Part shown: positions 5,052-32,029 of the stretch, one piece after another
Numbering within the stretch: the stretch's first letter is position 1
How the letters are laid out: every line of letters starts with the position of its first letter
Source: a virus
IMG/VR virus record: IMGVR_UViG_3300025120_000286
Coordinates: 1 to 32,029 of that record
DNA length: 32,029 bases
Strand: one strand, 5' to 3'
Position numbers and translations under genes: made by a program
The notes under the pieces: model-generated
Told to the model about the DNA's origin: nothing
Databases searched by the model: none
What the model saw: the letters and a program-made list of their open reading frames with translations, nothing else

Positions 5052-5520
5052 CGAACAAGTAGAAAATTTGTTCTTAGTTATTATGGTTACTACAATGTTA
5101 GTTTTAGGTCTATACAGTGCTTTTATTGATGCTGACCAAATAACCCATAAATTTAAATCACCAAGTTTTAATGGTGAAGGTACTTCTAGTCATTATCTTA
5201 CAATTGAAAATCAAGAATTTAGTCGTAAATTAACAATTAAAGAAGAAATTAAAGCTTTACAAGATGAAATAGAACGAGAAAAAGAAAATAGCACATTAGC
5301 TAGGTTTATGAGAAACCTTGAATCAAGAGTCTATGCTGAACTTTCTAGACAGTTAGTAGATAACCTGTTTGGTGAAACACCTCAAAGTTCTGGTACAATA
5401 CAATTAGAAGGAAACACGATTCAATATACAAGTGATGGTGTTACATTAACATTAAAAATAACCGAGGAAGATGGAACAGTTACTGAAATTACGATACCTA
5501 TCGGTACTTTTACTTTCTAG
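5023..5520 (+). CDS. csgF: CsgF-like curli secretion accessory protein
   Basis: A 165-residue exported protein similar in layout to CsgF, which in E. coli (138 aa) plugs into the outer-membrane CsgG pore and links secretion to curlin nucleation. A hydrophobic signal or anchor spans about 16-35. Directly after it comes THKFKSPSFNGEG, which matches the FxFRNPxFGG signature at the mature CsgF N-terminus, the part that inserts into the CsgG channel. A helical region (about 70-120) and a C-terminal strand pair (GTIQLEGNTIQY, then VTLTLKITEEDGTVTEITIP) follow, as in CsgF. The very basic N-terminus (RKRKK) and longer middle helix differ from E. coli. It overlaps csgG by 50 bases, which supports the assignment. 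Confidence 0.85.
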   Translation: MRKRKKTKADEQVENLFLVIMVTTMLVLGLYSAFIDADQITHKFKSPSFNGEGTSSHYLTIENQEFSRKLTIKEEIKALQDEIEREKENSTLARFMRNLESRVYAELSRQLVDNLFGETPQSSGTIQLEGNTIQYTSDGVTLTLKITEEDGTVTEITIPIGTFTF

Positions 5521-6292
5521 TTGTTCGTTATTTCAACAGCTTGAAGATACTTACGAACAACGATTTGAAAATCTTGATGTAGTTTCTATCCAGGAGTTAC
5601 AGTCTGTTGCTTTACGTGATGTAGAAGTTCCTGAAGTTAGTCCTGTGGTTGCTGTATATCCAACAGCTTTTACTGACCAAACAGGGCAACGTAAAAGTAA
5701 TAGTGAATTTGCTTTATTCAGCACCGCAATAACCCAACAACCCAATGCATTACTAATAAGAGCATTAAAACACGCAGGAAACGGTAATTTCTTTAGAGTA
5801 GTAGAAAGAGTTGGTTTAGATAATTTAACTAAAGAAAGGCAATTAATACGTTCCGCTAGAGAACAATTTGCTAATGAAGAAGAAAAGAAAAAACAATTAG
5901 CACCTTTATTGTTTGCAGGTATTTTAATCGAGGGTGCTGTAATTTCTTATGAAGCTAATTTAGAGTCTGGCGGTACAGGTGCAAGATATTTAGGGATTGG
6001 AAATAGTATTCAGTACAGAGAAGACAACATAACAGTTAGTTTACGTATGGTCTCTGTAGCTACAGGAGAAGTTCTTTTAGAAGTATTAAGTCAAAAAACT
6101 ATATTTAGTTATGGTAAGTCGGAAGATGTTTTTAAATTTGTTGAGTTAGGCACAGAGCTTGTAGAAATAGAATTAGGTAATGCTAGAAACGAATCATCAA
6201 CAATAGCTTTAATGAAAGCAATAGAAGGTGGTGTTTTAGAAATTATAAAACAGGGCTATAAAAGAAAATTTTGGGTTTTACAAAAAGATTAA
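5471..6292 (+). CDS. csgG: CsgG-like outer-membrane curli secretion channel lipoprotein
   Basis: A 273-residue protein (E. coli CsgG is 277) of the CsgG family, which forms a nonameric outer-membrane pore for export of unfolded curlin subunits. A lipoprotein signal peptide ends in LLSSC with Cys18 as the acylated residue. Family landmarks follow in order: AVYPTAFTDQTGQ (about 61-73), FSTAITQQPNALLIRALK (83-100), ERVGLDNLTKERQLIRSARE (112-131), ILIEGAVISYEANLESGG (151-168), ARYLGIG (171-177), an NITVSLRMVSVATGEVL strand, and a C-terminal FWVLQ. The eyelet region before FSTA lacks the E. coli Tyr51 and has a one-residue insertion. The short overlap with csgF and the curlin-like gene downstream give strong context. 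Confidence 0.93.
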   Translation: MEQLLKLRYLSVLLLSSCSLFQQLEDTYEQRFENLDVVSIQELQSVALRDVEVPEVSPVVAVYPTAFTDQTGQRKSNSEFALFSTAITQQPNALLIRALKHAGNGNFFRVVERVGLDNLTKERQLIRSAREQFANEEEKKKQLAPLLFAGILIEGAVISYEANLESGGTGARYLGIGNSIQYREDNITVSLRMVSVATGEVLLEVLSQKTIFSYGKSEDVFKFVELGTELVEIELGNARNESSTIALMKAIEGGVLEIIKQGYKRKFWVLQKD

Positions 6293-6300
6293 AAAAAGTT

Positions 6301-6318
6301 ATGATGGGACGGTCATGA
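6301..6318 (+). other. Five-codon leader micro-ORF upstream of the curlin-like gene
   Basis: After an AAAAAAAGTT leader at 6291-6300 there is an ATG ATG GGA CGG TCA TGA reading frame whose stop overlaps the ATG of the curlin-like gene at 6315 (ATGA). This could couple translation of the curlin-like gene to initiation at the A-rich leader. It may equally be chance, since the ORF is only five codons and no conservation data are available. Confidence 0.3.
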
Positions 6319-7043
6319 TAAAGAAGTTTGTACTATCTTTGCTATTGTTTACGTTATTTCCATTGTTTGCAGCGGATAATGAAATATATGTAGACCAATC
6401 AGGAACAGGGGCGAATATAGACCTTGAACAATTAGGCGTATCTAATATTATAGGTGGTTTAGGTTCTTCTGCAGGAAATTTAACTGCTTTTGATTTAGAC
6501 GGCACAAGCATGACTTTAGACATAAACATGATTGGTGCTACTAATAAATTTTTAGGAGACATCACAGCGAATAGTTTTACAGGGTTATATAACTTCACAG
6601 GATCAACAAATACTTTTACAATTCAAGTAGACCCTACAAATACATACGGAGCTAATAGTTCTAATCAAAACATAGCAGTTACAGGAGCAGGAAACACGTT
6701 TACGCTTAATCAAGCAACAACAGCCTTAGCTGCAACTTTAGATTTAGATTGGATTATTCAAGGTTCTAACAACACTGTAACGTCTAATATTAATATTGAC
6801 GGTGCAACTAACTACATGGATATAGACGGTAGTGATAACACAGTTAATTACACAGGAACAGGTGTTAATGCATCAGCGGGTGGTTACTTTTATTTAGATC
6901 ATACAGGCGGACAAAGAACGTTTAACATTCAACAACTGAGTACTTTAGATAATGACTGGCTTAAAATTTTATCAGTTGGCGGTAACGCTTCTTCTACTGT
7001 CTGTGTCGTTCAAAACGATCAAGGCACAAGCACCTCTTGTTGA
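6315..7043 (+). CDS. Secreted curlin-like (CsgA/CsgB-type) repeat protein
   Basis: A 242-residue protein with a clear Sec signal peptide (MIKKF, then a hydrophobic run to about residue 19, cleavage near AADN). The mature part is Gly/Asn/Thr/Gln-rich with poorly conserved strand-turn repeats of the type found in curlins: NEIYVDQSGTGANIDLEQLG (22-41), GNTFTLNQ (126-133), NNTVTSNINIDG (152-163), DNTVNYTG (174-181) and FNIQQL (203-208). It ends with two Cys (VCVVQ and STSC). It lies immediately downstream of csgF and csgG homologues, so it is the probable export substrate. The repeats are looser than in E. coli CsgA, so a surface adhesin or a minor, nucleator-like subunit is more likely than a canonical fibre subunit. 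Its last 92 bases overlap the FecR-domain gene. Confidence 0.72.
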   Translation: MIKKFVLSLLLFTLFPLFAADNEIYVDQSGTGANIDLEQLGVSNIIGGLGSSAGNLTAFDLDGTSMTLDINMIGATNKFLGDITANSFTGLYNFTGSTNTFTIQVDPTNTYGANSSNQNIAVTGAGNTFTLNQATTALAATLDLDWIIQGSNNTVTSNINIDGATNYMDIDGSDNTVNYTGTGVNASAGGYFYLDHTGGQRTFNIQQLSTLDNDWLKILSVGGNASSTVCVVQNDQGTSTSC

Positions 7044-8070
7044 TATTGGGGATATATCTGAACTAAACGGTTCTGCACAAATAGTACGAGACAAACCCTA
7101 TACCGCTGATTTAAATTTTTCTATACAAAGTAACGACGAAGCAATTACTACAAACGGTAGAATGGCTATTACGTTTTTAGATGATTCTATTGTAAAACTA
7201 ACTGAACACTCACAACTCACCATAGACGAATATATCTACGACCCCGACCCTTCTAAATCTAAAATGGCTCTTACTTTCGGATTAGGTACGGCAAGGTTTA
7301 TTACAGGAAATTTAAATCGTATAGATAAACAAAACATTAAATTAAAAACTCCTACAGCTAATATTGCAATTCGTGGAACTGATTTTACAGCGACAGTAGA
7401 TGAATTAGGTCGTAGTTTAATCATTCTTTTACCAGATGCTTTAGGTTTATCTAGTGGAGAAATAGAAGTAGTTACCGCAACAGGAACAGTTTTATTAAAT
7501 AAACCGTATCAAGCAACAACTGTTTCGGTTTTTGAATCAGCCCCCAGTAAACCCGTTATCTTAGATTTAACTTTAGACGTTATTGATAATATGTTAATCG
7601 TTACGCCCCCTAAAGAAAAAGAAAAAATACAAGAAGAAAACATACAAACCAAAAGAGAAAACATATTAGATTTTAATGATTTAGATATTGACTATTTAGC
7701 TGAAGACTATTTAGCTGAGGATGAGCTTGAGTTTACCGAATTAGATATCAATTTTTTAGATGTAAATTTTTTAGAAGATTTATTAAATGTTTTAGACGCT
7801 TTAGCTATAGCCAAAGATGAAGATGTATTAGCTCAAGCTACTAGTACACAAGTAACAGGAACTTTATTAGGTAAAGACCCAGACACACAAATAACAACAT
7901 TAATAACAGGAAATGTTGTTAGTTTAAGAAGAACTGTAAATGAAAGTGTTAGAGTTGATTTAAACGGTAGTGAAGCTTATACAGTAATTTTGATACAAGA
8001 CGGAGTATCTAATATAATCAAAGTTAATGGAGGAAGTAATAGCGTAATTACTATTACTCAAAGCGATTAA
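6952..8070 (+). CDS. Secreted FecR-domain protein with curlin-like C-terminal tail
   Basis: A 372-residue protein with an N-terminal signal peptide (hydrophobic 9-20, cleavage likely near AQA at 25-27). A FecR domain covers about 40-195. Its hallmarks are NGRMAITFLDDSIVKLTEHS (68-87), the IDEYIYDP strand, and KTPTANIAIRGTDFTATV (132-149), the TPxAxxGIRGT signature with Ala-Ile in place of Gly-Ile. A highly acidic, Asp/Leu-rich linker (237-285, including DYLAEDYLAED) follows. The last 40 residues carry repeats of curlin character (EAYTVILIQDGVSN, then SNSVITITQ). FecR domains act in the periplasm as signal transducers or binding modules; stand-alone FecR proteins often sit beside CHASE2 cyclases, as here. 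The start lies inside the curlin-like gene; a later ATG would lose the signal peptide. Confidence 0.85.
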   Translation: MTGLKFYQLAVTLLLLSVSFKTIKAQAPLVDIGDISELNGSAQIVRDKPYTADLNFSIQSNDEAITTNGRMAITFLDDSIVKLTEHSQLTIDEYIYDPDPSKSKMALTFGLGTARFITGNLNRIDKQNIKLKTPTANIAIRGTDFTATVDELGRSLIILLPDALGLSSGEIEVVTATGTVLLNKPYQATTVSVFESAPSKPVILDLTLDVIDNMLIVTPPKEKEKIQEENIQTKRENILDFNDLDIDYLAEDYLAEDELEFTELDINFLDVNFLEDLLNVLDALAIAKDEDVLAQATSTQVTGTLLGKDPDTQITTLITGNVVSLRRTVNESVRVDLNGSEAYTVILIQDGVSNIIKVNGGSNSVITITQSD

Positions 8071-9824
8071 TGAAAAAGTTAATACTACCTATATTATTTT
8101 TACTTGGATTACCTTTAGTGTTTCAAGTCGCACCTGTTGAAATATTAAAATTAAAAACATTTGATGCTTTTGTAACTACACCAGAGCCTTCTGGTAATTT
8201 TGTTATTTTAAATATTACTGAAGAAGATGTAGATGCGGCAGGCGGTTATCCGTTTCCTAGAGAGGAACTAGCTAAGATACATTTAGACTTATTGCGTAAA
8301 GGTGCTTTAGGCGTTGGTTGGGTATTAGCTTTTCCACACGAAGATAGGTTTGGTGGTGATCATTATTTTAAAGAAGCATTATCGTATGCTCCTTCGGTTA
8401 TCGCTGTTTTTGAAAACGATAATGGTATATACCCTAAAACAGTAGGTACTGTTATTATGGGTGAGGGTAACGGTGGTTATATGTCTAAAGGTACCGTACA
8501 AAATATTTCAGGATTAAACGCAGCAGAAGGAGTAGCTTCCGCTCCCGTAGATATAGATAACTTAGTTAGACGGATACCACTTCTATATAAGACCCCAGAG
8601 GGGTGGTTAGCGGCTTACGGTACACAAGTATTAAAAGCCCTAACAGGGGCTAAAACTTACGTTATAAAAACTAATACGAATGGGTTAGAAGAAATAAGAG
8701 TAAAAGGTTTACCGCCAGTAAAAGTAGATTCTTTAGGGCGTAAGTGGGTTAGTTGGGTAGACACTCCTACAACAACATTAAAAGAAATGAATGTAAAAAA
8801 TAAATTCGTTTTTGTTGGAGTAACTGCTAAAGGCGTTATGCCACAGTTAGCTACACCAACAGGGTTACTTGAGCCACACAAGATACAAGCAGCATTAGCA
8901 GAATCAATATTGGTAGAAAATAGTCCATATATCCCCGACTATAGTATAGCCGTTGAAGTTTTAGTGTTTGTTATATCCCTGCTTTTAGTTTGGGTTGCGT
9001 TAAACAACTTAGGCATTACTGCAGGAGTCCTTTGTTTTGGTGTAGTTATGTCTAGCACCGCTATCGGAGGCTATTATGCCATACAACAAGGATTATTAAT
9101 AGATGCAACTTGGTCTTTAATAAGTCAATTTATAACAGGTACAGTAGCCTTTTATTTAAGATTTAGAGAACAATTTAAATTACGATTACAAATTAAAAAA
9201 CAGTTTGAACATTATCTAGACCCTAGACAAGTAAAACAATTACAAAAGAATCCAGATTTATTAAAACTAGGTGGCGAAAAGAAAACAGCTACGTTTTTAT
9301 TTACCGATGTTAGAGGGTTTACCGCTTTATCTGAATCAGTAACTCCTGAAGAAGTGACTTATATAATGAATAAAGCATTAACCGCACAACAAGCAGCAGT
9401 ACAAAAACACGGTGGTATGGTAGATAAATACATAGGTGATGCGATGATGGCTATATTTAACGCACCTTTAGATTTATTAGATCACCCGAACATAGCGGTG
9501 AGTTGTGCTCAAGATATTTGGCAAAATATGTCAGACCTTAATGTAGAACTCCAAGCGGAAGGCTTGCCCCCAATAGCCATAGGAATAGGCATAAACACAG
9601 GAGAAGCAGTGATCGGTAATATGGGTTCTTCATCTAGATTTGATTATACCGCTATCGGTGACGCAGTAAATACCGCGGCTAGATTAGAATCAGCAACGAA
9701 AGAAGCAGGAGCAGATATACTTATTGGGGAAAATACTAAAAATTTATGTAAACATAGCTTAAAAGAACTAACACCGATGAAAGTAAAAGGCAAAGAAAAA
9801 CCTTTAAAAATATACACACTTTGA
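8070..9824 (+). CDS. CHASE2-domain class III adenylate/guanylate cyclase (membrane receptor)
   Basis: A 584-residue receptor cyclase. An N-terminal membrane helix (4-22) is followed by a periplasmic CHASE2 domain (about 25-285, with FVILNITEEDVDAAGGYPF and VSWV, KFVFVG motifs) and three transmembrane helices (about 292-310, 316-336, 345-364). A linker (HYLDPRQVKQL) leads to the cyclase domain (about 405-584). Catalytic residues are all visible: metal-binding Asp413 (FTDVRGFTAL) and Asp457 (KYIGDAMMAIF), substrate Lys453, base-selecting Thr527 (FDYTAIGD), and transition-state Asn534 and Arg538 (AVNTAARLE). Lys plus Thr favours ATP over GTP. It is coupled to the FecR-domain gene by TAATG. This is an unusual gene for a lytic-type phage; ligand and effector are unknown. 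Confidence 0.93.
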   Translation: MKKLILPILFLLGLPLVFQVAPVEILKLKTFDAFVTTPEPSGNFVILNITEEDVDAAGGYPFPREELAKIHLDLLRKGALGVGWVLAFPHEDRFGGDHYFKEALSYAPSVIAVFENDNGIYPKTVGTVIMGEGNGGYMSKGTVQNISGLNAAEGVASAPVDIDNLVRRIPLLYKTPEGWLAAYGTQVLKALTGAKTYVIKTNTNGLEEIRVKGLPPVKVDSLGRKWVSWVDTPTTTLKEMNVKNKFVFVGVTAKGVMPQLATPTGLLEPHKIQAALAESILVENSPYIPDYSIAVEVLVFVISLLLVWVALNNLGITAGVLCFGVVMSSTAIGGYYAIQQGLLIDATWSLISQFITGTVAFYLRFREQFKLRLQIKKQFEHYLDPRQVKQLQKNPDLLKLGGEKKTATFLFTDVRGFTALSESVTPEEVTYIMNKALTAQQAAVQKHGGMVDKYIGDAMMAIFNAPLDLLDHPNIAVSCAQDIWQNMSDLNVELQAEGLPPIAIGIGINTGEAVIGNMGSSSRFDYTAIGDAVNTAARLESATKEAGADILIGENTKNLCKHSLKELTPMKVKGKEKPLKIYTL

Positions 9825-22447: not shown

Positions 22448-23230
22448 ATGACTAATGAAAAAACAGAAATAGCTGAAAAGAAGGAGACGTCTATCAGCAC
22501 ATTTGACGATAATCTATTGTCAGGCGGTACAGGGTTAGAAGAAACTACTACGGAGGATTTCGCAATCCCCTTTATTAGAGTTCTACAACCTATGTCACCA
22601 CAACTAAATAAACAACACGGTAAGTATGTAGAGGGTGCTGGACAAGGCGATCTTTATAATACGGTTACTGGTGAAGCATACGACGGAGCTAAAGGTATTA
22701 GCATCGTTCCTTGTGCTTATACTAAGAAGTTTATTGAATGGGTACCTAGAGAGAAAGGCGGTGGTTTAGTCAACGCTAATCACGATATCTCTATTCTTAA
22801 CTCTTGTACTAGAGACGGAGAGTCTAGAAGGTATTTTACTAAAGAAGGTAATGAAATCGTAGAGACTGCACAATTCTTTGTGTTAGTAGTAAACGGAGAC
22901 GTTGCTCAACAAGCTGTTATTGCTTTTACTTCTACTCAATTAGGGGTAGCTAGAAAATGGTTAACGATGCTTAGAATGGCTAGAGTACAGAACTCTAAGG
23001 GTCTTTCAGTAGAAGCTCCTATGTTCGCTTATACATACTCTTTAGCTACTACTACTCAATCTAACGATAAAGGTAGTTGGAACGGCTACACGATCAGTCA
23101 AGAAGGTGCTACGGAGTTATCTGTAGCTATGATGGCTAAAGACTTTATGTCTGCGGCTAGGTCTGGTGATGTACAAGTTAAAGAAGAACAGCAGCAAGAT
23201 GTTGCGAATGCGGCTAACGAAGCATTTTAA
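22448..23230 (+). CDS. Putative single-stranded DNA-binding protein
   Basis: A 260-residue protein that I recognise by pattern as the group often called ssDNA-binding protein in uncultured marine podoviruses: a DFAIPFIRVLQPMSPQLNK start, a GDLYNTVTGEAYDGAKGISIV core and a WNGYTISQEGATELS segment. The acidic/Gln-rich tail ends in a terminal Phe (AANEAF), similar in principle to the acidic, Phe-ending tails of T7 gp2.5 and SSB that recruit replication partners. It stands between an accessory gene and the primase gene. The role is inferred from family memory and context; no OB-fold residues can be proven by eye. Confidence 0.55.
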   Translation: MTNEKTEIAEKKETSISTFDDNLLSGGTGLEETTTEDFAIPFIRVLQPMSPQLNKQHGKYVEGAGQGDLYNTVTGEAYDGAKGISIVPCAYTKKFIEWVPREKGGGLVNANHDISILNSCTRDGESRRYFTKEGNEIVETAQFFVLVVNGDVAQQAVIAFTSTQLGVARKWLTMLRMARVQNSKGLSVEAPMFAYTYSLATTTQSNDKGSWNGYTISQEGATELSVAMMAKDFMSAARSGDVQVKEEQQQDVANAANEAF

Positions 23231-23247
23231 TATAACGGAGAAATTTT

Positions 23248-24771
23248 ATGTCGTTAGCAGAGCGATTTGCTACACGCTATGCAGGGCTACGCCAAGCATA
23301 TGGAACTTTCACCGCTAGTAATGACTTACGAGAGGATGGCAAGGCAAATGGTAAAAACGTTACCATATCTAAAGAGTTATCAGATACTGATCTCTTAAAG
23401 TTATGGCAAGACCATTTGTCGGGTCAGCAAAGTGTTGGTATTGTTTCTATAGACGAAAACAATTGTTGCGTCTGGGGAGCGATAGATGTTGATGAGTATC
23501 AGCTAGACTTAAAAGGTTTAGCTAAGAAAATAGCTAAACACGAGTTGCCCCTTGTCGTCTGTCGTAGTAAAAGTGGCGGAGCACACATATATTTGTTTTT
23601 AGACGAGCCTGTATTAGCGTCCCTAATGCAAAGAAAATTGAGACAGTTGGCAGCTTCTATTGGTTTTGGACAAGCGGAGATATTCCCTAAACAAACCAAG
23701 CTACTGTTAGAACGTGGAGATAGAGGAAGCACTTTAAATATGCCTTACTTCGGAGGAGAGAACTCGACTAGGTATGCGTATGGTAAAGAAGGACAAGCAC
23801 TTAGTCCAGAAGAATTTTTAGACTATGCTGAAGAATTAAAGTTAAAGCCTAGTGCTTTAGAAACCTTAGAGGCAAGTCCTCTAACCGAATCTATAGATTG
23901 GCTAGACCAGTCACCCCCTTGTTTACAGCATTTAGTTGTACAGGGTTTTCCGAAAGGAACTAGAAACTCAGGCTTGTTTAATCTTGGTGTGTTTTTAAGA
24001 AAGAAATACTCTGACGATTGGGAAAAAAGATTAGAAGAAGTAAATATGCAGTATATGCACCCGCCGTTGGGAGCACAAGAAGTATTAACGATTGCTAAAC
24101 AAGTACAAAGAAAAGATTATTTTTATAGGTGTAATGACCAACCCATCGCTAGTCATTGTAACAGTCCTTTATGTAGAACTAGAAAACATGGGATTGGGGC
24201 TAATGGTGGGACACCTTTATTTAGTAACCTTACAAAACAGGACAGTGATCCACCTATTTGGTTCTTAGATGTCGAAGGCGGTAGGCTAGAGCTAGAAACT
24301 GATGACTTATTAAATCAAAACAGATTCCAACGTAAATGTATGGATGCTCTAAATAAAATACCACCGAAGGTAAAAGAAAACGTTTGGAATCAAATTATAC
24401 AACAGCTATTAGATACTATTACTATAGTAGAAGTACCTAAAGAAAGTTCGACAGAAGGTCACTTTATGGAGTTATTAGAATCGTTCTGTACAGAAAGACC
24501 TGCTAGAGAGCGAGACGAGTTATTGTTACATAAGCCTTGGACAGATAAAGGTAGAACTTATTTTAGATTACTAGACTTAATGGATTATTTACATAGAAAT
24601 AACTTTAAAGAATACCAACGAAATAAACTTACGTCTAAATTAAAACAATTACATGGTGAGCCGTATTTCTTTAATATTAAAGGCAAAGGTGTAAACGTTT
24701 GGTTTATTAATGAGTTTATAGCTCAGAATGAAGAACACGATCTGCCTGATTTTAATGACAATTTATTATGA
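23248..24771 (+). CDS. Archaeo-eukaryotic-type primase (AEP / PrimPol-like)
   Basis: A 507-residue replication primase of the AEP superfamily, similar to TOTE/PrimPol-type primases. The catalytic metal pair is AIDVDEY (Asp80, Asp82). It is followed by SKSGGAHIYLF with His113 (nucleotide binding) and by NMPYFGG at 164-170. A zinc-binding cluster lies at 295-314 (CNDQPIASHCNSPLCRTRKH), a knuckle typical of the C-terminal part of AEP primases. A charged C-terminal region (about 370-507) has no helicase motifs, so a separate helicase is required; an SF1 and an SNF2-type helicase are both encoded nearby. The good ribosome-binding site (CGGAG) fixes the start. Confidence 0.85.
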   Translation: MSLAERFATRYAGLRQAYGTFTASNDLREDGKANGKNVTISKELSDTDLLKLWQDHLSGQQSVGIVSIDENNCCVWGAIDVDEYQLDLKGLAKKIAKHELPLVVCRSKSGGAHIYLFLDEPVLASLMQRKLRQLAASIGFGQAEIFPKQTKLLLERGDRGSTLNMPYFGGENSTRYAYGKEGQALSPEEFLDYAEELKLKPSALETLEASPLTESIDWLDQSPPCLQHLVVQGFPKGTRNSGLFNLGVFLRKKYSDDWEKRLEEVNMQYMHPPLGAQEVLTIAKQVQRKDYFYRCNDQPIASHCNSPLCRTRKHGIGANGGTPLFSNLTKQDSDPPIWFLDVEGGRLELETDDLLNQNRFQRKCMDALNKIPPKVKENVWNQIIQQLLDTITIVEVPKESSTEGHFMELLESFCTERPARERDELLLHKPWTDKGRTYFRLLDLMDYLHRNNFKEYQRNKLTSKLKQLHGEPYFFNIKGKGVNVWFINEFIAQNEEHDLPDFNDNLL

Positions 24772-25349
24772 TCAAGTTTTATAAAAATAAATTTGTAGGT
24801 TTTAATCCGTTAATAACTGATTGGGATAAACCCGTAAATAGAGTATTTAATGGTAAAAAAATTAAGGGTAGACCAACTAAAGCTTTTGGTACCGCTGATT
24901 TTGAATACGCAGGTAGAGTTTATAAACCCGTACCGTGGACTCAACCGATGATGTATATAAAAGGTAATTTAGAAACATTTATAAAAAGAGAACTTAACAA
25001 AGAAATTAATTTTAATTTTTGTCTATGTGGTTATTATGGTGTGGATGGAAGGGGCATACCACACCATTCTGATACGGTACCTGCATTAGACGATTTAGTT
25101 GTTTCGATGTCTTTTGGTTCGCCTAGAATATTCCAATGGAAAGAATATACTAAGTCTATTAAAGAACATACCGCAACCAGCATAGTTAATACAAAACATA
25201 TAAGTAAAAAAGGTACAACTGATTATTTAATGGAAAACGGAGACGTGTTTATCTTTGACGGTCACTCACAGATGAAAGCTACCCACGCAGTACCTGATGT
25301 AGTCGGCGGTAGTGAACGAATTAATTTAACTTTTAGGACGGGAATATGA
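24768..25349 (+). CDS. AlkB-like 2OG-Fe(II) dioxygenase
   Basis: A 193-residue dioxygenase of the AlkB type, which removes alkyl groups from nucleic acid bases. Iron ligands are PHHSD (His100, Asp102) and His173 (THAVP). 2OG-binding arginines are in SERINLTFR (Arg184 and Arg190). The FGTADFEYAGRVYKPVPW segment resembles the AlkB nucleotide-recognition lid, and MENGDVFIFDGHSQ is the usual strand before the distal His. It could repair methylated phage DNA, or oxidise or remodel modified bases; the cassette at 27053-30451 makes the second possible. It overlaps the primase by ATGA and the zinc-ribbon gene by ATGA. Confidence 0.88.
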   Translation: MIKFYKNKFVGFNPLITDWDKPVNRVFNGKKIKGRPTKAFGTADFEYAGRVYKPVPWTQPMMYIKGNLETFIKRELNKEINFNFCLCGYYGVDGRGIPHHSDTVPALDDLVVSMSFGSPRIFQWKEYTKSIKEHTATSIVNTKHISKKGTTDYLMENGDVFIFDGHSQMKATHAVPDVVGGSERINLTFRTGI

Positions 25350-25486
25350 AGTGTTGGCATTGTAACGAAGAATTAATTTGGGGTGGAGATCATGATATAG
25401 ATGAAGAAAATGAAGAATACGATATAGTTACTAATTTGTCATGCCCTTGTTGTGAATCTTTTGTAGAAGTTTATCACAAAAAATGA
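25346..25486 (+). CDS. 46-residue zinc-ribbon protein
   Basis: A small protein with two Cys pairs, CWHC at the N-terminus and CPCC near the C-terminus, joined by an acidic spacer: a classic zinc ribbon. It is interlocked with both neighbours by ATGA overlaps, which strongly supports that it is a real gene. It may bind nucleic acid or a replication protein; no specific function is known to me. Confidence 0.72.
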   Translation: MKCWHCNEELIWGGDHDIDEENEEYDIVTNLSCPCCESFVEVYHKK

Positions 25487-26979
25487 CATTACCCGCTCAC
25501 ACCCAAGTAATACTTGGTCCTCCTGGAACGGGAAAGACCAGTACTTTATTAGGTTTAATAGAAGATGAATTAGCAAAAGGTACAAAGCCTGAACGTATTG
25601 GATTTTTTACGTTTACTAAAAAAGCAGTTACCGAGGGTAAAGAAAGAGCTATGGCTAAATTTAGAATAGCTAATAAAGATTTACCATTTTTTAGAACACT
25701 ACATTCATTAGCGTTTAGACAACTAGGATTAACTAGGGAAAGCGTAGTGGGTTATTCTGATATTTTAGATTTAAATGAAAAATTAAACATAAGACTGACG
25801 GGTCGAACTACCTCTGAAGAAGGTCATTTATTTGGTATGACTCATGATGATAGACTAGCGTTTATCGAAAACCTAGCTCGTATGAAAAACATATCGTTAA
25901 AAGAACAATGGCATGAGGTAGAAGATGCGGTTGGTTGGTTTGAATTAGAACGTTTTGCTAGAGGATTAAAGTTATTTAAAGAAGATAGATTATTAGTTGA
26001 TTACACTGATATGTTAGAAATGTTTTTGACACAAGGTGATATACCCAAACTAGATGTTATGTTTGTAGATGAAGCTCAAGACTTATCCCCTTTGCAATGG
26101 GCGGTGGTACGTAAACTTACGGAAAGAGCTGATCGTATCTATGTCGCAGGAGATGATGATCAGGCTATTTATAAATGGGCGGGTGCTGATGTTGATTATT
26201 TAATTAAAAACTCTAAAAACGCTATGATTCTAAAACAGTCGTACCGTGTGCCTTCGGCTATTCATGACGTTGCTAAAAAGTGTATTGATCAAGTACGGTC
26301 TAGAATACATAAAGAATGGAATCCTAAAAAGGAAACAGGACTTGTTCGTTGGGAACCGACTATAGAGCTAATAAACATGGAAGAAGGTGAGTGGTTAGTG
26401 TTAGCTAGGACTAATTATTTACTAGAAGATGTCGATGAGTATTGTAGAAACGAGGGTTGGTTCTTTGAAGTAAAAGGCAGACCCAGTATCACTGAAAACA
26501 AGGTTAGAGCGGTAGTTCATTGGGAACGTATGGTAAAAGGCTTATCGATATCGGTCAACGAGTGTGTCAATATTTTAAAGTATATTAAGATAAACAAACC
26601 TAAAAAATTAGATTTATTAGAATCAGATTTATTATTACAATATCAAGACTTAAAAGATTACTATCCTGAATTACCTGACGGAGCTTGGTATAATTCGTTA
26701 AATTTATTAACTCCAAAAGAAGTAAGTTACATTCGAGCTATGCTTAGACGTGGAGAAAAAATAACTAAACAACCTAGAATTCGTTTATCTACGATCCATG
26801 CTGCTAAAGGTGGTGAATCAACAAACGTAGTATTGCTAACAGATATTACTGCTAGAGTTTATAAAAACTATCAGCAAAATCCTGATGATGAGAATAGAGT
26901 TTTTTATGTAGGTATAACAAGGGCAAAAGAAAACTTGTATTTAATAGAACCTAAAACAACACGCTGTTATCAGTTGTAA
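25483..26979 (+). CDS. SF1 UvrD/Rep-family DNA helicase
   Basis: A 498-residue superfamily 1 helicase. Motif I is GPPGTGKT (12-19), motif Ia TFTKKAVTEG (43-52), motif II VDEAQD (195-200), motif III GDDDQAIYKWAGA (223-235), motif IV QSYRVP, motif V TIHAAKGGES, and motif VI VGITRAKENLYL near the C-terminus. It is shorter than UvrD (about 720 aa) because the 1B/2B inserts are small, closer to Dda-like phage helicases. It probably unwinds DNA at the fork with the AEP primase and polymerase A. It is coupled to the zinc-ribbon gene by ATGA. Confidence 0.92.
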   Translation: MTLPAHTQVILGPPGTGKTSTLLGLIEDELAKGTKPERIGFFTFTKKAVTEGKERAMAKFRIANKDLPFFRTLHSLAFRQLGLTRESVVGYSDILDLNEKLNIRLTGRTTSEEGHLFGMTHDDRLAFIENLARMKNISLKEQWHEVEDAVGWFELERFARGLKLFKEDRLLVDYTDMLEMFLTQGDIPKLDVMFVDEAQDLSPLQWAVVRKLTERADRIYVAGDDDQAIYKWAGADVDYLIKNSKNAMILKQSYRVPSAIHDVAKKCIDQVRSRIHKEWNPKKETGLVRWEPTIELINMEEGEWLVLARTNYLLEDVDEYCRNEGWFFEVKGRPSITENKVRAVVHWERMVKGLSISVNECVNILKYIKINKPKKLDLLESDLLLQYQDLKDYYPELPDGAWYNSLNLLTPKEVSYIRAMLRRGEKITKQPRIRLSTIHAAKGGESTNVVLLTDITARVYKNYQQNPDDENRVFYVGITRAKENLYLIEPKTTRCYQL

Positions 26980-27052: not shown

Positions 27053-27904
27053 ATGTCATCAATTAGAAAGAAATTAACTGTTAATGAAAATGACAGTAAA
27101 AATACTCGAATGGATCTAGCTTCGGCAGGTGTATTGGGTAACTGGAGACCCGATGAGTTAGCTCATATGAGTCGATTCGATAAAATCGCTTCGCTTTGTA
27201 TAGAAGAAGCTAAACTGTTAGGTAGACCATTAGATACTTTAGAAGTAGGCTGTGGTGAGTGTTGGGCTTTACGTTGTTTATATAAGGCTTATGTCGTTAA
27301 GAAATCTGATATTATTAGTTCTTATTACGGCTACGATATAGACCCTGCTTGTCAATTAGAGAATAAGTTTTGGTCTAACGCAGGTGGAAAACTAGAAGAA
27401 TCTACTTGGTTTAAAAACTTTAATGGAGAAATAAGAATACAAGACCTAACGGTAAACCCTATCTTTGATTTACCTGATGAAAGTATAGACTTTTTCTGGT
27501 CAACCGAAGTTATTGAACATATGGGTAGAGAGTTTATTCCCGCATGGTTAGATGATGTTGCTCGTGTTATGCGACCTGATTCTATAGCGTATGTGTCTAC
27601 TCCTAACCACGACGGTTCTAATGATAAGTTACCCGAAGATCATGTATATGAGTGGGGTTTTCAAGAACTTAAAGAAGAACTAGAAAGAAATTTTCATATT
27701 GAAGCAGTAACGGGTACGTTTATTCAAATGCCTAACTTAAAGAAAGCTAGGTTTGATGGCTCTCGAGACGTGGGTTTAGAGTGGACAGACCAACAAATGA
27801 TTATGTTAACAGAACGTTTTGGTAAACAGTTTTTAAGAATGGCAGCAGCAACGGTGTATCCTGAACATTCTAATAACTGTGCTTGGAGATTACGTAAAAA
27901 ATAA
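27053..27904 (+). CDS. Class I SAM-dependent methyltransferase
   Basis: A 283-residue Rossmann-fold methyltransferase (Methyltransf_11/25-like). SAM-binding motif I is LEVGCGECWA (63-72), motif II YYGYDIDP (91-98), the acidic loop SIDFFWSTEVIEHM (144-157), and the post-motif strand VMRPDSIAYVSTPNH (172-186). No target-recognition domain or DNA-methylase DPPY/PCQ motif is visible, so a DNA-sequence-specific methylase is unlikely. It is coupled by TAATG to the hmdU-kinase-family gene, which makes modified-base chemistry or protein/cofactor methylation in that pathway a reasonable guess. The substrate is unknown. Confidence 0.85.
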   Translation: MSSIRKKLTVNENDSKNTRMDLASAGVLGNWRPDELAHMSRFDKIASLCIEEAKLLGRPLDTLEVGCGECWALRCLYKAYVVKKSDIISSYYGYDIDPACQLENKFWSNAGGKLEESTWFKNFNGEIRIQDLTVNPIFDLPDESIDFFWSTEVIEHMGREFIPAWLDDVARVMRPDSIAYVSTPNHDGSNDKLPEDHVYEWGFQELKEELERNFHIEAVTGTFIQMPNLKKARFDGSRDVGLEWTDQQMIMLTERFGKQFLRMAAATVYPEHSNNCAWRLRKK

Positions 27905-28830
27905 TGATTCAATTTATCCCAGAAGAACTTGATAGATATTTCTATTGGCAAGAGGAACGTGAAATGATTCGGCTTAGAAAAGAAGAATCAGAAACTCCTT
28001 CGCCTTGGACTTCTGACCCTATACTACAACAGTTTAAATTCTGTCAAGTGTATAGGGAGGATGATAGAACTACTCGTTGGTTTAGAGAACATATAAGGGA
28101 ACCGTTAAAAAACAAACCAGAAGTCTTAATGGCTACGGTTATCTTTCGTTGGTTTAATCTTATAGAAACGGGTAGAACATTAATAGATAATGATCTATTA
28201 GTTAATTGGGATAGAGAGAAAGCTATAGAAGAAATAACTAAACAACCTAAATGGATCACGGGTTCATACATTATAAAAACACCTAATCGTATGAATAAAG
28301 TTACAGGAGTAGCCGAGTGTGTTTCACATATGTGGAGTGATCGAAATTATTTAGTAGATAAGTTAGAAAAGAACACAGCTGATGGAGAGTGTTCTTTACA
28401 AAGTTGTTGGGAAACTTTACGTGACTACCCTTATATGGGTCCATTTATGGCATATGAAGTGGTTACTGATCTTAGGCATACTTATTTATTAGACGAAGCA
28501 AATGATATTCTCACGTGGGCTAATGCTGGTCCTGGAGCAATGCGAGGACTTAATAGATTAACAGGTAGGGATTTAAAGTTTTGTAAACGTAGTCACTCTT
28601 GGGGCGATGAAATGGAACAGTTATTAGCAATAGCCATAGATAGAAATTCATTCGTTACTAAACGTAATGATTTGAAATATGAGTTAAGAGAGATAGAAGG
28701 TGGTCTTTGTGAGTTCGATAAGTACTCTAGGATTGTTAAAAACGAAGGTAGAACACGTTCTATATATAAACAAAATGATCTTCCTAAAGTAGAAGATTTG
28801 ATAAAAGGAGTAAGTAAGTATGACATTTAG
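27904..28830 (+). CDS. 5-hmdU DNA kinase helical-domain / aGPT-pyrophosphorylase family protein
   Basis: A 308-residue helical protein. FCQVYREDDRTTRWF (47-61), FRWFNLIETG (81-90), WITGSYIIKTP (117-127), GPFMAYEVVTDLR (179-191), DILTWANAGPGAMRGLNRL (201-219) and IEGGLCEFDKYSR (264-276) recall the family described by Iyer and Aravind for phage thymine hypermodification: alpha-glutamyl/putrescinyl-thymine pyrophosphorylase or the helical domain of 5-hydroxymethyl-dU DNA kinase. These proteins act on 5-hydroxymethyluracil in DNA so that an amine or amino acid can be attached. A P-loop kinase domain is not visible, so it is the stand-alone version. A TS-family gene downstream could supply 5-hmdUMP. 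Confidence 0.75.
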   Translation: MIQFIPEELDRYFYWQEEREMIRLRKEESETPSPWTSDPILQQFKFCQVYREDDRTTRWFREHIREPLKNKPEVLMATVIFRWFNLIETGRTLIDNDLLVNWDREKAIEEITKQPKWITGSYIIKTPNRMNKVTGVAECVSHMWSDRNYLVDKLEKNTADGECSLQSCWETLRDYPYMGPFMAYEVVTDLRHTYLLDEANDILTWANAGPGAMRGLNRLTGRDLKFCKRSHSWGDEMEQLLAIAIDRNSFVTKRNDLKYELREIEGGLCEFDKYSRIVKNEGRTRSIYKQNDLPKVEDLIKGVSKYDI

Positions 28831-29041
28831 TAGTAATGAAGCTATAGAGCTTCTAGAAAAGTGGGGAGATTCTGTTGATATATTCTATACGCAGTTCTTA
28901 GAAGTATCTTTTTTCTTAAAAGTGTCTGCTTCAGAAAACATGGCAATAGCTTTTGTAAAAAAGAAACTACCTATGTTGAGTGAGCAAGAGATAGCTTATC
29001 TAATAACCGAAGTAGTATTGGGATATCAGGAGACTTTATGA
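28820..29041 (+). CDS. Small acidic helical protein, function unknown
   Basis: A 73-residue, mostly helical protein that overlaps the previous gene by 11 bases and the TS-family gene by four (ATGA). An AAGGAG precedes it at 28805-28810. It has no membrane segment or known motif. Because it is locked between two putative base-modification genes it may belong to that pathway, but that is position only. Confidence 0.6.
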   Translation: MTFSSNEAIELLEKWGDSVDIFYTQFLEVSFFLKVSASENMAIAFVKKKLPMLSEQEIAYLITEVVLGYQETL

Positions 29042-30123
29042 AAGTAATAACAGCAAGAAATGTAAACGATGCTTTTAAACTAGGGGTAGATTTCTTTTTA
29101 GATAAAGATAACTACAGGCAACAAGATAGTAGAAACGGTACAACACTAGAAGCTAATGAACCTGTAACTACGGTTTATCGGAAACCTACTGAACGAGTAT
29201 TGTTTTCTCAAAAACGTGATGCTAATCCGTTCTTTCATTTTATAGAAGGGTTATGGATGTTGCATGGACGTAACGACTTAAGACCTTTAACCTTTTTTGT
29301 AGACTCTATGCGAAACTTTTCTGATGACAATAAAACTCTATGGGGAGCCTACGGTTGGCGTTGGAGAGATTATTTTGATAAAGATCAATTAGATATTATT
29401 ATCGCTATGTTAAAACGTAATCCAGACGATAGACGAGCCGTTTTACAGATGTGGGACGTAAGAAAAGATTTAGATAAAGACGGTAAAGACGTGCCTTGTA
29501 ACACGAATATATATTTTAAAATCAGAGATAATAAATTAAATATGACTGTATGTAATCGTTCTAATGATATGATTTGGGGAGCTTACGGTGCTAACGCAGT
29601 ACATATGTCTATGTTACAAGAATATATGGCTACGTTAATTGGTGTAGAAGTTGGTGTGTATACTCAAATTAGTGATAGTTTTCACGTTTACGAAAACGAC
29701 GTTTGGGAACGTTGTAAACAATTAGGCGTTATTGATATTCATAGTTGGCGTTCTACTAAAAACGAATACGAACATATCGAACAAAAAGAACTTATACCTT
29801 TAATAACTCATTCTAAAACTTTCCATTGGGAGCTAAATTTATTTTTTGAGGCGTTTAACGACGTTATAACTACAGGAGAAAAGTTTTCAACTAAAGAATA
29901 TACAGGACCAATAAAAACTTTTAAAAATTCGTCTATACGAGACATAGCAATACCTATGGTTAATGCTTATATGTTTCATAAACATAGACGTTACGAGGAT
30001 TCTTATGCCGAGATTAATAAAATTAAAGCATATGATTGGATGACGGCATGTTTCGATTGGGTCCGAAAAAGAGACGTGTCGTATACTTTAAACAATACGG
30101 ACAAAGGAGAAACTCATGGATAA
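29038..30123 (+). CDS. Thymidylate synthase-family enzyme, probable dUMP hydroxymethylase or TS
   Basis: A 361-residue enzyme of the ThyA fold (E. coli ThyA is 264), with C-terminal additions. The catalytic Cys154 is in DVPCNTNIYF; the usual His after Cys is replaced by Asn. The phosphate/dUMP loop is CNRSNDMIWGAYGANAVH (172-189); Asn186 corresponds to the Asn that reads a uracil ring, where dCMP hydroxymethylases have Asp. The conserved HxY is HVY at 217-219, and RRAVLQMWD (132-140) carries the phosphate-binding arginine region. Together with the neighbouring hmdU-kinase family protein, dUMP hydroxymethylation is as likely as normal thymidylate synthesis. No dihydrofolate reductase is seen nearby. 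Confidence 0.85.
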   Translation: MKVITARNVNDAFKLGVDFFLDKDNYRQQDSRNGTTLEANEPVTTVYRKPTERVLFSQKRDANPFFHFIEGLWMLHGRNDLRPLTFFVDSMRNFSDDNKTLWGAYGWRWRDYFDKDQLDIIIAMLKRNPDDRRAVLQMWDVRKDLDKDGKDVPCNTNIYFKIRDNKLNMTVCNRSNDMIWGAYGANAVHMSMLQEYMATLIGVEVGVYTQISDSFHVYENDVWERCKQLGVIDIHSWRSTKNEYEHIEQKELIPLITHSKTFHWELNLFFEAFNDVITTGEKFSTKEYTGPIKTFKNSSIRDIAIPMVNAYMFHKHRRYEDSYAEINKIKAYDWMTACFDWVRKRDVSYTLNNTDKGETHG

Positions 30124-30451
30124 ATGGGAAAATATGAAAACAGTCGCACAAAACGATCTACATGCTTTAAAGAAAGCAGAGACGTCTTATGGCGATTCAT
30201 GGAAACGTCGTGGGGGTGTTGGTGCTTTTATGATGTTAGCACGTAAGTTCGATAGAATCGAACATCAATCAGAGAAACATGGTTGGGATATATTTGAAGC
30301 AGGTAAGGCTTTTCAAGGAGAAGCTGGTCTATTAGATGATATAAGGGATTTACGTAGATATCTACTATTAGTCGAAAACGATATTCTTCATCAAGATTCT
30401 TTAACTGAATCTGAAGAATTAGTTGAAACAATAATTAGCGGAGAAGAGTAA
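30116..30451 (+). CDS. DUF1599-like (Nmad1-type) phage protein
   Basis: A 111-residue all-alpha protein. The KKAETSYGDSWKRRGGVG then MLARKFDRIEHQ pattern and the DDIRDLRRYLLLVENDI helix resemble the DUF1599 group, described as nucleotide modification associated domain 1 because it recurs near phage base-modification genes. It overlaps the TS-family gene by eight bases and follows a strong AAAGGAG. The family match is by eye and moderate. If right, it extends the modification cassette by one gene. Confidence 0.55.
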   Translation: MDKWENMKTVAQNDLHALKKAETSYGDSWKRRGGVGAFMMLARKFDRIEHQSEKHGWDIFEAGKAFQGEAGLLDDIRDLRRYLLLVENDILHQDSLTESEELVETIISGEE

Positions 30452-30750
30452 TGGGTTGGTTTAAAAATTTAGTTTCATATGTAACGTCTTACGAGTCTAA
30501 AACTGTTGATGAGAAAAAACTCTTAGATAAAGCTAAGAAAGATGCTGAAGTTGTTTTAGAGAAGTTTGAAGAAAAAGTCAAACCTGTTAAAGCAGTTAAG
30601 CCTAAACGAGCTAAAAAGAAAGGTAAGTTTGTAGCTGATGATAAATCTACTCCAGACGTAAACGAAGCTTGGGAAGGCGGTAAAGCACCGATTAAAAAAC
30701 CCAAAGCGTACACAACTAAAGTCACTCGTATAGGTAAAAAGAAAAAGTAA
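30451..30750 (+). CDS. Small Lys-rich protein, function unknown
   Basis: A 99-residue protein with a short aromatic N-terminus (MGWFKNLVSYVTSYES), a charged helical middle and two Lys-rich stretches (KPKRAKKKGK; and the RIGKKKK end). It overlaps the previous and following genes by single TAATG bases. It probably binds nucleic acid or a replication partner such as the polymerase encoded next; no domain is recognisable. Confidence 0.6.
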   Translation: MGWFKNLVSYVTSYESKTVDEKKLLDKAKKDAEVVLEKFEEKVKPVKAVKPKRAKKKGKFVADDKSTPDVNEAWEGGKAPIKKPKAYTTKVTRIGKKKK

Positions 30751-32029
30751 TGCAAATACCGTTGTTCGCTCCAGAAAGCACTTGGTCTATTCCTGAAGTT
30801 TTTCCTCAGTTTTCTGAGACAGAAACTATCGCAATAGATTTAGAAACATACGATCCACATCTCATGACTTGTGGTCCAGGATGGGCTACGGGTCGTGGTC
30901 ATGTGGTGGGTATTGGAGTCGCAGCAGAAAATTGGAGTGGTTACTTTCCTATCCGTCACGAAGGTGGTGGTAATTTAGATGAAGAAGTGGTATTACGTTG
31001 GTTACGTAAGTTGTTATCGTCTAATAAACGTGAAGTTATATTCCATAACTCACTCTATGATGTAGGTTGGTTAAGGAGAGAAGGCGTAGAGGTCAAGGGT
31101 AAAATACTAGATACTATCGTTGCGGCTCCGTTAATTGATGAGAATAGATTTTCGTATTCATTAGATAATTTAGGTAGTTCTTTTTGTGATGAACAAAAAG
31201 ATGAATCTTTATTACGTGATGCAGCTCTAGCTTTTGGTATAAATCCTAAATCAGAGATGTATAAACTACATTCTAAATACGTTGGTCACTACGGTGAGCA
31301 AGATGCGGCACTAACTCTTAAACTTTGGAATAAATTAAAATTAGAAATAGTTGAGCAAAACTTAGAATCTATATTAGATATGGAATGTAGGTTGATACCA
31401 TTGTTATTAGAGATGCGTTGGCGAGGCGTTAGAGTTGATGAACAAAAAGCTGAAGACGTTAGTAAACAACTCTCTACCGAAGAACAAAAGATACAAGTAG
31501 AGATTAAACGTAAATATGGTAGCGATGTCAATCTATGGGCTAATGCTTCTCTACAAAATATTTTCGATAAGAATAAACTATGGTATCCACGTACCGCAAA
31601 AGGTATGGCTAGTTTCCAAAGAGACTGGTTAGAAGGACATGAACACGAACTACCTCAACTTATTGTAAGAGCTAGGAAGCTCAACAAAGCTAGAACTACC
31701 TTTATCGATAAGATGATAACGGATCATTCTTTTAACGGTAGAATACATGCAGAAGCTCATGCTATGCGTAATGATCGTGGCGGCACGGTTAGTGGTCGAT
31801 TTAGTTATAGCAACCCTAATCTACAACAAGTTCCTGCACGTGACCCTGAGATAGGTAATTTGATTCGTTCTTTATTTATTCCCGAAGACGGCTGTGAGTG
31901 GGGGGTATTTGATTATTCACAACAAGAGCCTAGACTTACGGTACATTACGCTGACCAAATGAATCTAACAGGGGCAAAAGATGCGGTAACTCTATATAGA
32001 GACGAAGCCGCAGACTTTCATCAGATAGT
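30750..32029 (+). CDS. Family A DNA polymerase, 5' part (continues beyond window)
   Basis: A replicative family A polymerase with 3'-5' exonuclease; 426 codons are visible. Exo I is AIDLETYDP (Asp30, Glu32), Exo II FHNSLYDVGWL (Asp104), Exo III HYGEQDAALTL (Tyr181, Asp185), all intact for proofreading. The polymerase region begins with GGTVSGRFSYSNPNLQQVPA (the TGRLSSxxPNLQNIP motif) and motif A FDYSQQEPRLTVHYAD, where the catalytic Asp is present and Pro replaces the usual Leu of SQIELR. Motifs B and C lie outside the window. Coupled by TAATG to a small Lys-rich gene. This marks the replication module of a T7-like or pelagiphage-like virus. Confidence 0.95.
   Translation, partial: MQIPLFAPESTWSIPEVFPQFSETETIAIDLETYDPHLMTCGPGWATGRGHVVGIGVAAENWSGYFPIRHEGGGNLDEEVVLRWLRKLLSSNKREVIFHNSLYDVGWLRREGVEVKGKILDTIVAAPLIDENRFSYSLDNLGSSFCDEQKDESLLRDAALAFGINPKSEMYKLHSKYVGHYGEQDAALTLKLWNKLKLEIVEQNLESILDMECRLIPLLLEMRWRGVRVDEQKAEDVSKQLSTEEQKIQVEIKRKYGSDVNLWANASLQNIFDKNKLWYPRTAKGMASFQRDWLEGHEHELPQLIVRARKLNKARTTFIDKMITDHSFNGRIHAEAHAMRNDRGGTVSGRFSYSNPNLQQVPARDPEIGNLIRSLFIPEDGCEWGVFDYSQQEPRLTVHYADQMNLTGAKDAVTLYRDEAADFHQI

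Follow-up and report, generated by a model that had tools for sequence, protein, structure and literature searches.

The stretch of DNA analysed here (the window) is a 32-kb viral record of 32,029 nucleotides, IMGVR_UViG_3300025120_000286, and represents a fragment of a phage genome. It contains a compact operon that we interpret, with a probability of about 45%, as a cassette for thymidine hypermodification in which another decorating branch has replaced the usual one: a methyltransferase (MT) holds the position taken in known pathways by a DNA kinase, directly upstream of a helical protein that we call hel, and a search of 47 related viral records detected neither the kinase nor the amino acid:DNA transferase (ADDT) of those pathways. 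All genes of the operon lie on the (+) strand and run from position 27053 into the DNA polymerase gene polA. An earlier note, made from the sequence alone, had proposed an overlapping operon composed of an S-adenosylmethionine (SAM)-dependent MT, an HMUDK_hel-family protein and an enzyme of the thymidylate synthase (TS) family, together with an AlkB-like enzyme; the analysis bore out each of these components, coordinates included, and showed the operon to be tight and co-directional. Two open reading frames (ORFs) of 73 and 99 amino acids (28820-29041 and 30451-30750) and the placement of the MT at the kinase position were points outside that note.

Hydroxymethylase and helical protein

The coding sequences overlap, in order from the MT to polA, by 1, 11, 4, 8, 1 and 1 bases. 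The order AlkB-UvrD-MT-hel-(73 aa)-TS-111 aa-99 aa-polA is repeated in IMG/VR relatives whose hel proteins are 62-100% identical to that of the window, with the 73-aa and 99-aa genes absent from some of them. Comparing the window with three relatives (NG86 method), we obtained dN/dS values of 0.06-0.10 for the MT, the most strongly constrained of the genes compared, 0.13-0.18 for hel and 0.14-0.27 for the TS-family gene. Since the gene order recurs in related contigs and dN/dS is low, the operon reflects more than a chance arrangement.

The TS-family enzyme (29038-30123, +) matches PF00303 (E 3e-23) and phrog_5131 (E 8e-113), and its closest relative is the dUMP-hydroxymethylase-type enzyme of phage M6 (44% identity). 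Its best match in the PDB is the CMP 5-hydroxymethylase MilA, at 80 bits versus 58 bits for the best thymidylate synthase. The catalytic residues Cys154, Glu70, Arg174, Asp177, His216 and Tyr218 are kept, and the base-recognising position is Asn186, the uracil type. In thymidylate synthase, Trp80 and Trp83 are active-site residues; here they are replaced by Met91 and Phe94, and Cys154-Asn155 stands instead of the Cys-His motif. The loss of these features, together with the PDB ranking in favour of MilA, disfavours a true thymidylate synthase (ThyA). Judged by homology and active-site residues, the enzyme is very probably a dUMP hydroxymethylase, predicted to produce 5-hydroxymethyl-dUMP (5-hmdUMP).

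The hel gene (27904-28830, +) encodes a stand-alone HMUDK_hel/aGPT-PPlase1 protein that matches PF18723 over residues 9-281 of 308 (E=8e-42). It is 44% identical to the Ab18/PaMx11 (Abidjanvirus) group, the closest among isolated phages, and 37% identical to M6 gp55. Every invariant residue of an alignment comprising M6, Ab18, Pam3, RHph_I72, Sonora, PhiW-14 and another pelagiphage is retained, and across 96 diverse homologues the residues R19, R51, D54, R82, N85, K132, D189, D201, W205, C269, E270 and K273 never vary. The Pfam name suggests a 5-hydroxymethyldeoxyuridine (5-hmdU) DNA kinase, but a genuine kinase was ruled out: the protein has no P-loop or kinase domain, and its predicted structure is entirely helical (pLDDT 95). 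The top PDB fold match of this model was the PaMx11 5-PmdU glycinyltransferase 8z2n, a weak one (E 0.8, probability 0.57), and the next matches, also weak, included the helix-hairpin-helix DNA glycosylases AlkA, EndoIII and OGG1. A PDB sequence search with hel returned nothing but a chance-level aminotransferase match.

The distribution of hel is informative. In Bacillus phage SPO1, 5-hmdU replaces T and is made at the nucleotide level. Of the phages tested, PhiW-14, ViI, M6, Ab18 and Pam3, all five of them known or predicted hypermodifiers of the kinase type, have hel; it was not found in SPO1, SP-15, T4 or AXL3. Because it occurs in the kinase-type hypermodifiers and was not found in SPO1, hel is tied to the decoration step rather than to 5-hmdU synthesis, and we predict that it is an enzyme that binds 5-hmdU in DNA or flips this base out.

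The gene upstream of hel

The MT (27053-27904, +), a class I SAM-dependent enzyme, matches Methyltransf_23 (E 8e-9) and Methyltransf_11 (E 5e-7). A 59-row alignment gave the family-wide invariants D34, H38, R41, G66, C67, G68, D95, E152, E155, H156, P184, H197, E200, G221, N275 and W278; beyond the SAM motif, the window protein carries the invariants of the AXL3 gp31 family (H38, R41, E152, E155, H156, H197, E200, N275 and W278). Its model (pLDDT 86) has a fold closest to small-molecule methyltransferases, and a PDB sequence search found no relative.

The gene directly upstream of hel encodes a P-loop kinase in Ab18, Pam3, RHph_I72, Sonora and M6 and the MT in the window; in Microbacterium phage Pherbot, a P-loop protein at this position was scored as a kinase by a profile built in this analysis. 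Two wider scans yielded hel loci from many phages; once duplicates and 18 loci whose upstream sequence was too short had been removed, 177 distinct hel loci were left. Of these, 69 had an MT, 59 a kinase and 49 neither; no locus had both. On the hel tree, at most two changes account for the MT group, so the MT arrived beside hel about once. The exclusivity consequently represents one event, not 69, and the tree rules out the 69 versus 59 split as the product of many independent events.

Among the loci with neither gene, the upstream neighbours include a TET-associated glycosyltransferase (TAGT), Pyr_excise-like and LicD-like proteins, and unknown proteins. The TAGT glycosyltransferase (PF20691) occupies this position in two other, separate hel lineages (L285:7049-7984 and L222:5141-5866), where kinase and MT are absent, which suggests glycosylated 5-hmdU in these two lineages. 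In some marine loci that lack both kinase and MT (L213, L235 and others; ~7.5-8.0 kb), the immediate upstream neighbour of hel is a Pyr_excise protein resembling T4 endonuclease V.

Pfam assigns M6 gp54 to the 5-hmdU DNA kinases (PF18748) and gp51 to the ADDTs (PF18724). We searched for both in the 47 related records (33-84 kb), with M6, Ab18 and ViI as controls. Neither PF18748 nor a profile built from three kinases found a kinase in the 47 records, and PF18724 found no ADDT; all three controls were positive in both searches, although the PF18748 model alone scarcely detects the Ab18 kinase (15 bits). In a 65-kb relative, UvrD was the sole classical Walker-A match among the predicted genes, with no other small Walker-A protein, and when 32 of its proteins were scanned against Pfam, the 25 families listed included a dUTPase and no kinase. 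The evidence for the absence of kinase and ADDT from the clade, as read from these records, is strong but not absolute. The cassette of the earlier note therefore survives in part. Its assignment to a 5-hmdU-based system of the M6/PaMx11 type holds, given PF18723 and the M6-like TS-family enzyme, whereas its proposal that kinase/pyrophosphorylase proteins decorate 5-hmdU does not: of these proteins the window encodes just the helical one, standing alone, and PF18748 and PF18724 are unmatched in the 47 records. In public records, the pathway kinases M6 gp54, Ab18 ORF12 and ViI 061c are labelled “terminase small subunit”.

The MT family also occurs away from hel. Its relatives among isolated phages are very few, and all reside in nucleotide cassettes with genes for TS-family enzymes, nucleoside triphosphate pyrophosphatase (NTP-PPase), TMP-kinase-like proteins and dCMP deaminase. 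Our MT profile detected Stenotrophomonas phage AXL3, MW202510 and MW202621, and none of 10 phages without the MT. At 80 IMG/VR loci of the AXL3-type family, a TS-family gene was present within ~6 kb in 61, an NTP-PPase in 55 and a dCMP deaminase in 52. The base-specifying residue was Asp in all AXL3-type hydroxymethylases (63/63) versus Asn in all hel-linked ones (169/169). Asp at this position is characteristic of cytosine enzymes such as the T4 dCMP hydroxymethylase, and in our alignment MilA has it too. The MT family is thus common to 5-hydroxymethylcytosine (5-hmC)-type and 5-hmU-type hydroxymethylases, and the feature that these share is the 5-hydroxymethyl group, which we predict the MT methylates.

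The complete AXL3-type cassette, combining the MT, NTP-PPase, TMP-kinase-like protein, cytosine-type hydroxymethylase and dCMP deaminase, is widespread (AXL3, NC_071036, 24050-28084; loci L093-L172) and is predicted to yield a modified cytosine. At one locus (L146), two copies of the MT family (at 6001 and 9881) flank a single hydroxymethylase cassette. Of 37 restriction enzymes, 35 fail to cut AXL3 DNA; the two that do cut it both have A/T-only sites, and the authors left the nature of the modification open (PMC7504290). This pattern fits an altered C.

Proposed scheme and rival explanations

In the scheme that we propose, the TS-family enzyme would hydroxymethylate dUMP and 5-hmdU would enter the DNA, a step for which homology and the active-site residues give strong support. 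From the protein families, residues, gene order, absences and selection read in these sequences, we infer what would follow. The glycosylase-like helical hel would recognise 5-hmdU in DNA or flip it out for the phage's own decorating enzyme; the MT, replacing kinase and ADDT, would then methylate the base with DNA as its substrate, in the simplest case by O-methylation of the hydroxyl of the 5-hydroxymethyl group to give 5-(methoxymethyl)uracil; and the modified base would shield the DNA from host nucleases. That the DNA bears a kinase-independent modification involving the MT is, in our judgement, an even bet, and naming 5-methoxymethyl-dU as the specific product is a tentative step beyond it. 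The broadest form of the proposal is rather unlikely to hold in full: it would combine 5-(methoxymethyl)uracil formed by SAM-dependent methylation of 5-hmdU in DNA, a cytosine counterpart made by the MT family in AXL3-type phages, and an exchangeable decorator slot (kinase, methyltransferase or glycosyltransferase) with hel as the shared base presenter.

To our knowledge, 5-(methoxymethyl)uracil has not so far been reported as a DNA base. Text searches of the literature returned nothing relevant on phage 5-methoxymethyl-deoxyuridine or on a hypermodifying O-methyltransferase. In the literature covered, we found no account of the loss of kinase and transferase, of replacement by an MT or of the link to cytosine hydroxymethylases; Lee 2018, Lee 2021 and Wen 2024 fall outside that coverage, and a prior mention there is possible. 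The pair of TS and aGPT-PPlase1 genes in pelagiphages is already known (Wittmers 2022, PMC9599517). If the scheme is correct, hel, although named after a kinase, would be a common element serving different decorating enzymes rather than part of a kinase, and very common ocean phages would carry an undescribed modified base. It would also make a concrete prediction about the modification of AXL3 and point to an enzyme that may methylate 5-hydroxymethylpyrimidines in DNA. Even if it is wrong, the TS and aGPT-PPlase1 pair of pelagiphages no longer implies the M6 pathway, because the kinase and the transferase are missing.

Several considerations weigh against an exchanged decorating branch. The pairing of MT and hel is essentially a single evolutionary event, which makes the exclusivity counts non-independent, and 18 contigs with short upstream sequence were left out of that count. 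Any catalytic role of hel is conjectural and the match of its predicted fold is weak (E 0.8, probability 0.57), and the modelled fold of the MT suits many small-molecule methyltransferases without pointing to an O-methyl acceptor. The relatives searched are mostly fragments, so that a highly diverged kinase could be encoded elsewhere, which we consider unlikely. The resistance of AXL3 DNA could come from 5-hmC alone. Finally, the chemistry of the scheme is a prediction from sequence.

Four other explanations deserve consideration. The DNA might contain plain 5-hmdU only, as in SPO1, with hel and the MT as relics or put to other uses. The intact hydroxymethylase and the failure to find kinase and ADDT agree with this, but SPO1, the model phage for plain 5-hmdU, has no detectable hel, and in the window clade hel and the MT are under strong purifying selection and retain their family invariants; we regard this explanation as unlikely. 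Alternatively, hel itself might add a group to 5-hmdU without activation by a kinase, and the MT would methylate the adduct or an intermediate to a methylated amine or ether instead of 5-methoxymethyl-dU. Such a role would suit the enzyme-like charged invariants of hel (R19, R51, D54, R82, K132, D189, D201, C269, E270 and K273) and the closest solved structure to its fold, that of a glycinyltransferase whose substrate is phosphorylated 5-hmdU. It is nonetheless distinctly improbable: if there is no kinase, an activated leaving group is hard to see, and the AXL3-type MT loci, with one weak exception, lack hel.

A full kinase-dependent pathway, from 5-hmdU through a phosphorylated intermediate to an amino-acid derivative, would require a kinase and transferase located elsewhere or diverged beyond detection. 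Both hel and the TS-family enzyme are closely homologous to those of M6 and Ab18, and PF18748 is poorly sensitive for the Ab18 kinase (15 bits), which leaves some room for it; yet the three-kinase profile and the ADDT model came up empty in the 47 records, UvrD is the one Walker-A protein of its kind in the 65-kb relative, where no further small one turned up, and the kinase's usual place is held by the MT, and we give this pathway little credence. The chance is similarly slim that the MT is an ordinary phage methyltransferase, acting on an RNA cap, a protein or a metabolite, that lies beside the cassette by accident. Its generic fold, the cap and metabolite methyltransferases among its structural matches and the annotation of one relative as “capping protein” would fit such an enzyme, but not its independent recurrence near pyrimidine hydroxymethylases in unrelated phages, nor its fixed position, its one-base overlap with hel and the strictest selection among the genes compared. 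Of the explanations considered, we prefer the exchange of the decorating branch.

Neighbouring genes and known systems

The remaining genes of the operon lie around and downstream of the TS-family gene. The 73-aa ORF between hel and the TS-family gene (28820-29041, +) has homologues in many relatives and matched no family in Pfam or NCBIfam. It is followed, beyond the TS-family gene, by a conserved 111-aa protein (30116-30451, +), kept in the relatives, which the earlier note had likened to DUF1599; the window protein and 12 pelagiphage homologues gave no Pfam DUF1599 match at E<=1, NCBIfam returned nothing, and we dropped this assignment. A lysine-rich 99-aa ORF (30451-30750, +), with homologues in most relatives, precedes the 5' part of DNA polymerase A (30750-32027, +), an open ORF that runs off the window. 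Homologues of polA stand at the same position in M6, Ab18 and relatives, and polA is the usual gene downstream of hel-TS.

Upstream of the MT, an AlkB-like 2-oxoglutarate-Fe(II) oxygenase (24768-25349, +; PF13532, E 1.4e-16) is followed by a UvrD/Rep-type helicase (25483-26979, +; PF00580, E 5e-28), whose role is probably in replication rather than in modification. An AlkB-like gene is present near 49 of 63 MT-hel loci versus none of 42 kinase-hel loci. This association may reflect phage lineage only, and a partnership of the oxygenase with the modification cassette is possible but unproven.

The window further encodes a primase, CsgG, FecR and a CHASE2/cyclase protein. The CsgG, FecR and CHASE2/adenylate-cyclase genes (5471-9824) form a phage-borne curli (type VIII secretion system, T8SS) cluster, as in HTVC023P-type pelagiphages. 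A separate region (22448-23230) strongly matches the gp34-like family (PF23977) of cyanophage Pam3, which carries a full kinase-type cassette. Wittmers 2022 describes T8SS genes and, beside polA, the TS and aGPT-PPlase1 pair for HTVC023P-type pelagiphages (clades V, VIII and IX; PMC9599517). Since the window has the same T8SS genes and the same pair adjoining polA, its phage belongs to the HTVC023P-type kind. It is a marine phage whose hosts are probably SAR11 bacteria.

Among known systems, SPO1 differs from the window in that neither hel nor the MT was found there. The HTVC023P-type pelagiphages share with it the TS and aG/PT-PPlase1 genes near polA and the CsgG, FecR and cyclase genes; the paper describing them contains no occurrence of “methyltransferase”, and its passages on the pair covered here do not describe a missing kinase or transferase (PMC9599517). 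AXL3 (gp27-gp31) has the same MT family beside a pyrimidine hydroxymethylase, but that enzyme is of the cytosine (Asp) type, dCMP deaminase, NTP-PPase and TMP-kinase-like genes accompany it, and hel was not found. PaMx11 and Ab18 (Abidjanvirus; glycinyltransferase gp46/PUGT) share the order X-hel-TS; in these phages X is a P-loop kinase preceded by ADDT, FAD-dependent oxidoreductase and acetyltransferase genes, whereas in the window X is the MT. The M6/Yuavirus cluster (gp51-gp59, 5-NedU) has in common with the window hel (gp55), the TS-family hydroxymethylase (gp58), the adjacent polA and the gene order. M6 has, in addition, the kinase gp54 (PF18748), the ADDT gp51 (PF18724), a radical SAM protein, a pyridoxal phosphate (PLP) enzyme and Nmad5; in the window clade, where this kinase and ADDT were not found, the kinase position is occupied by the MT.

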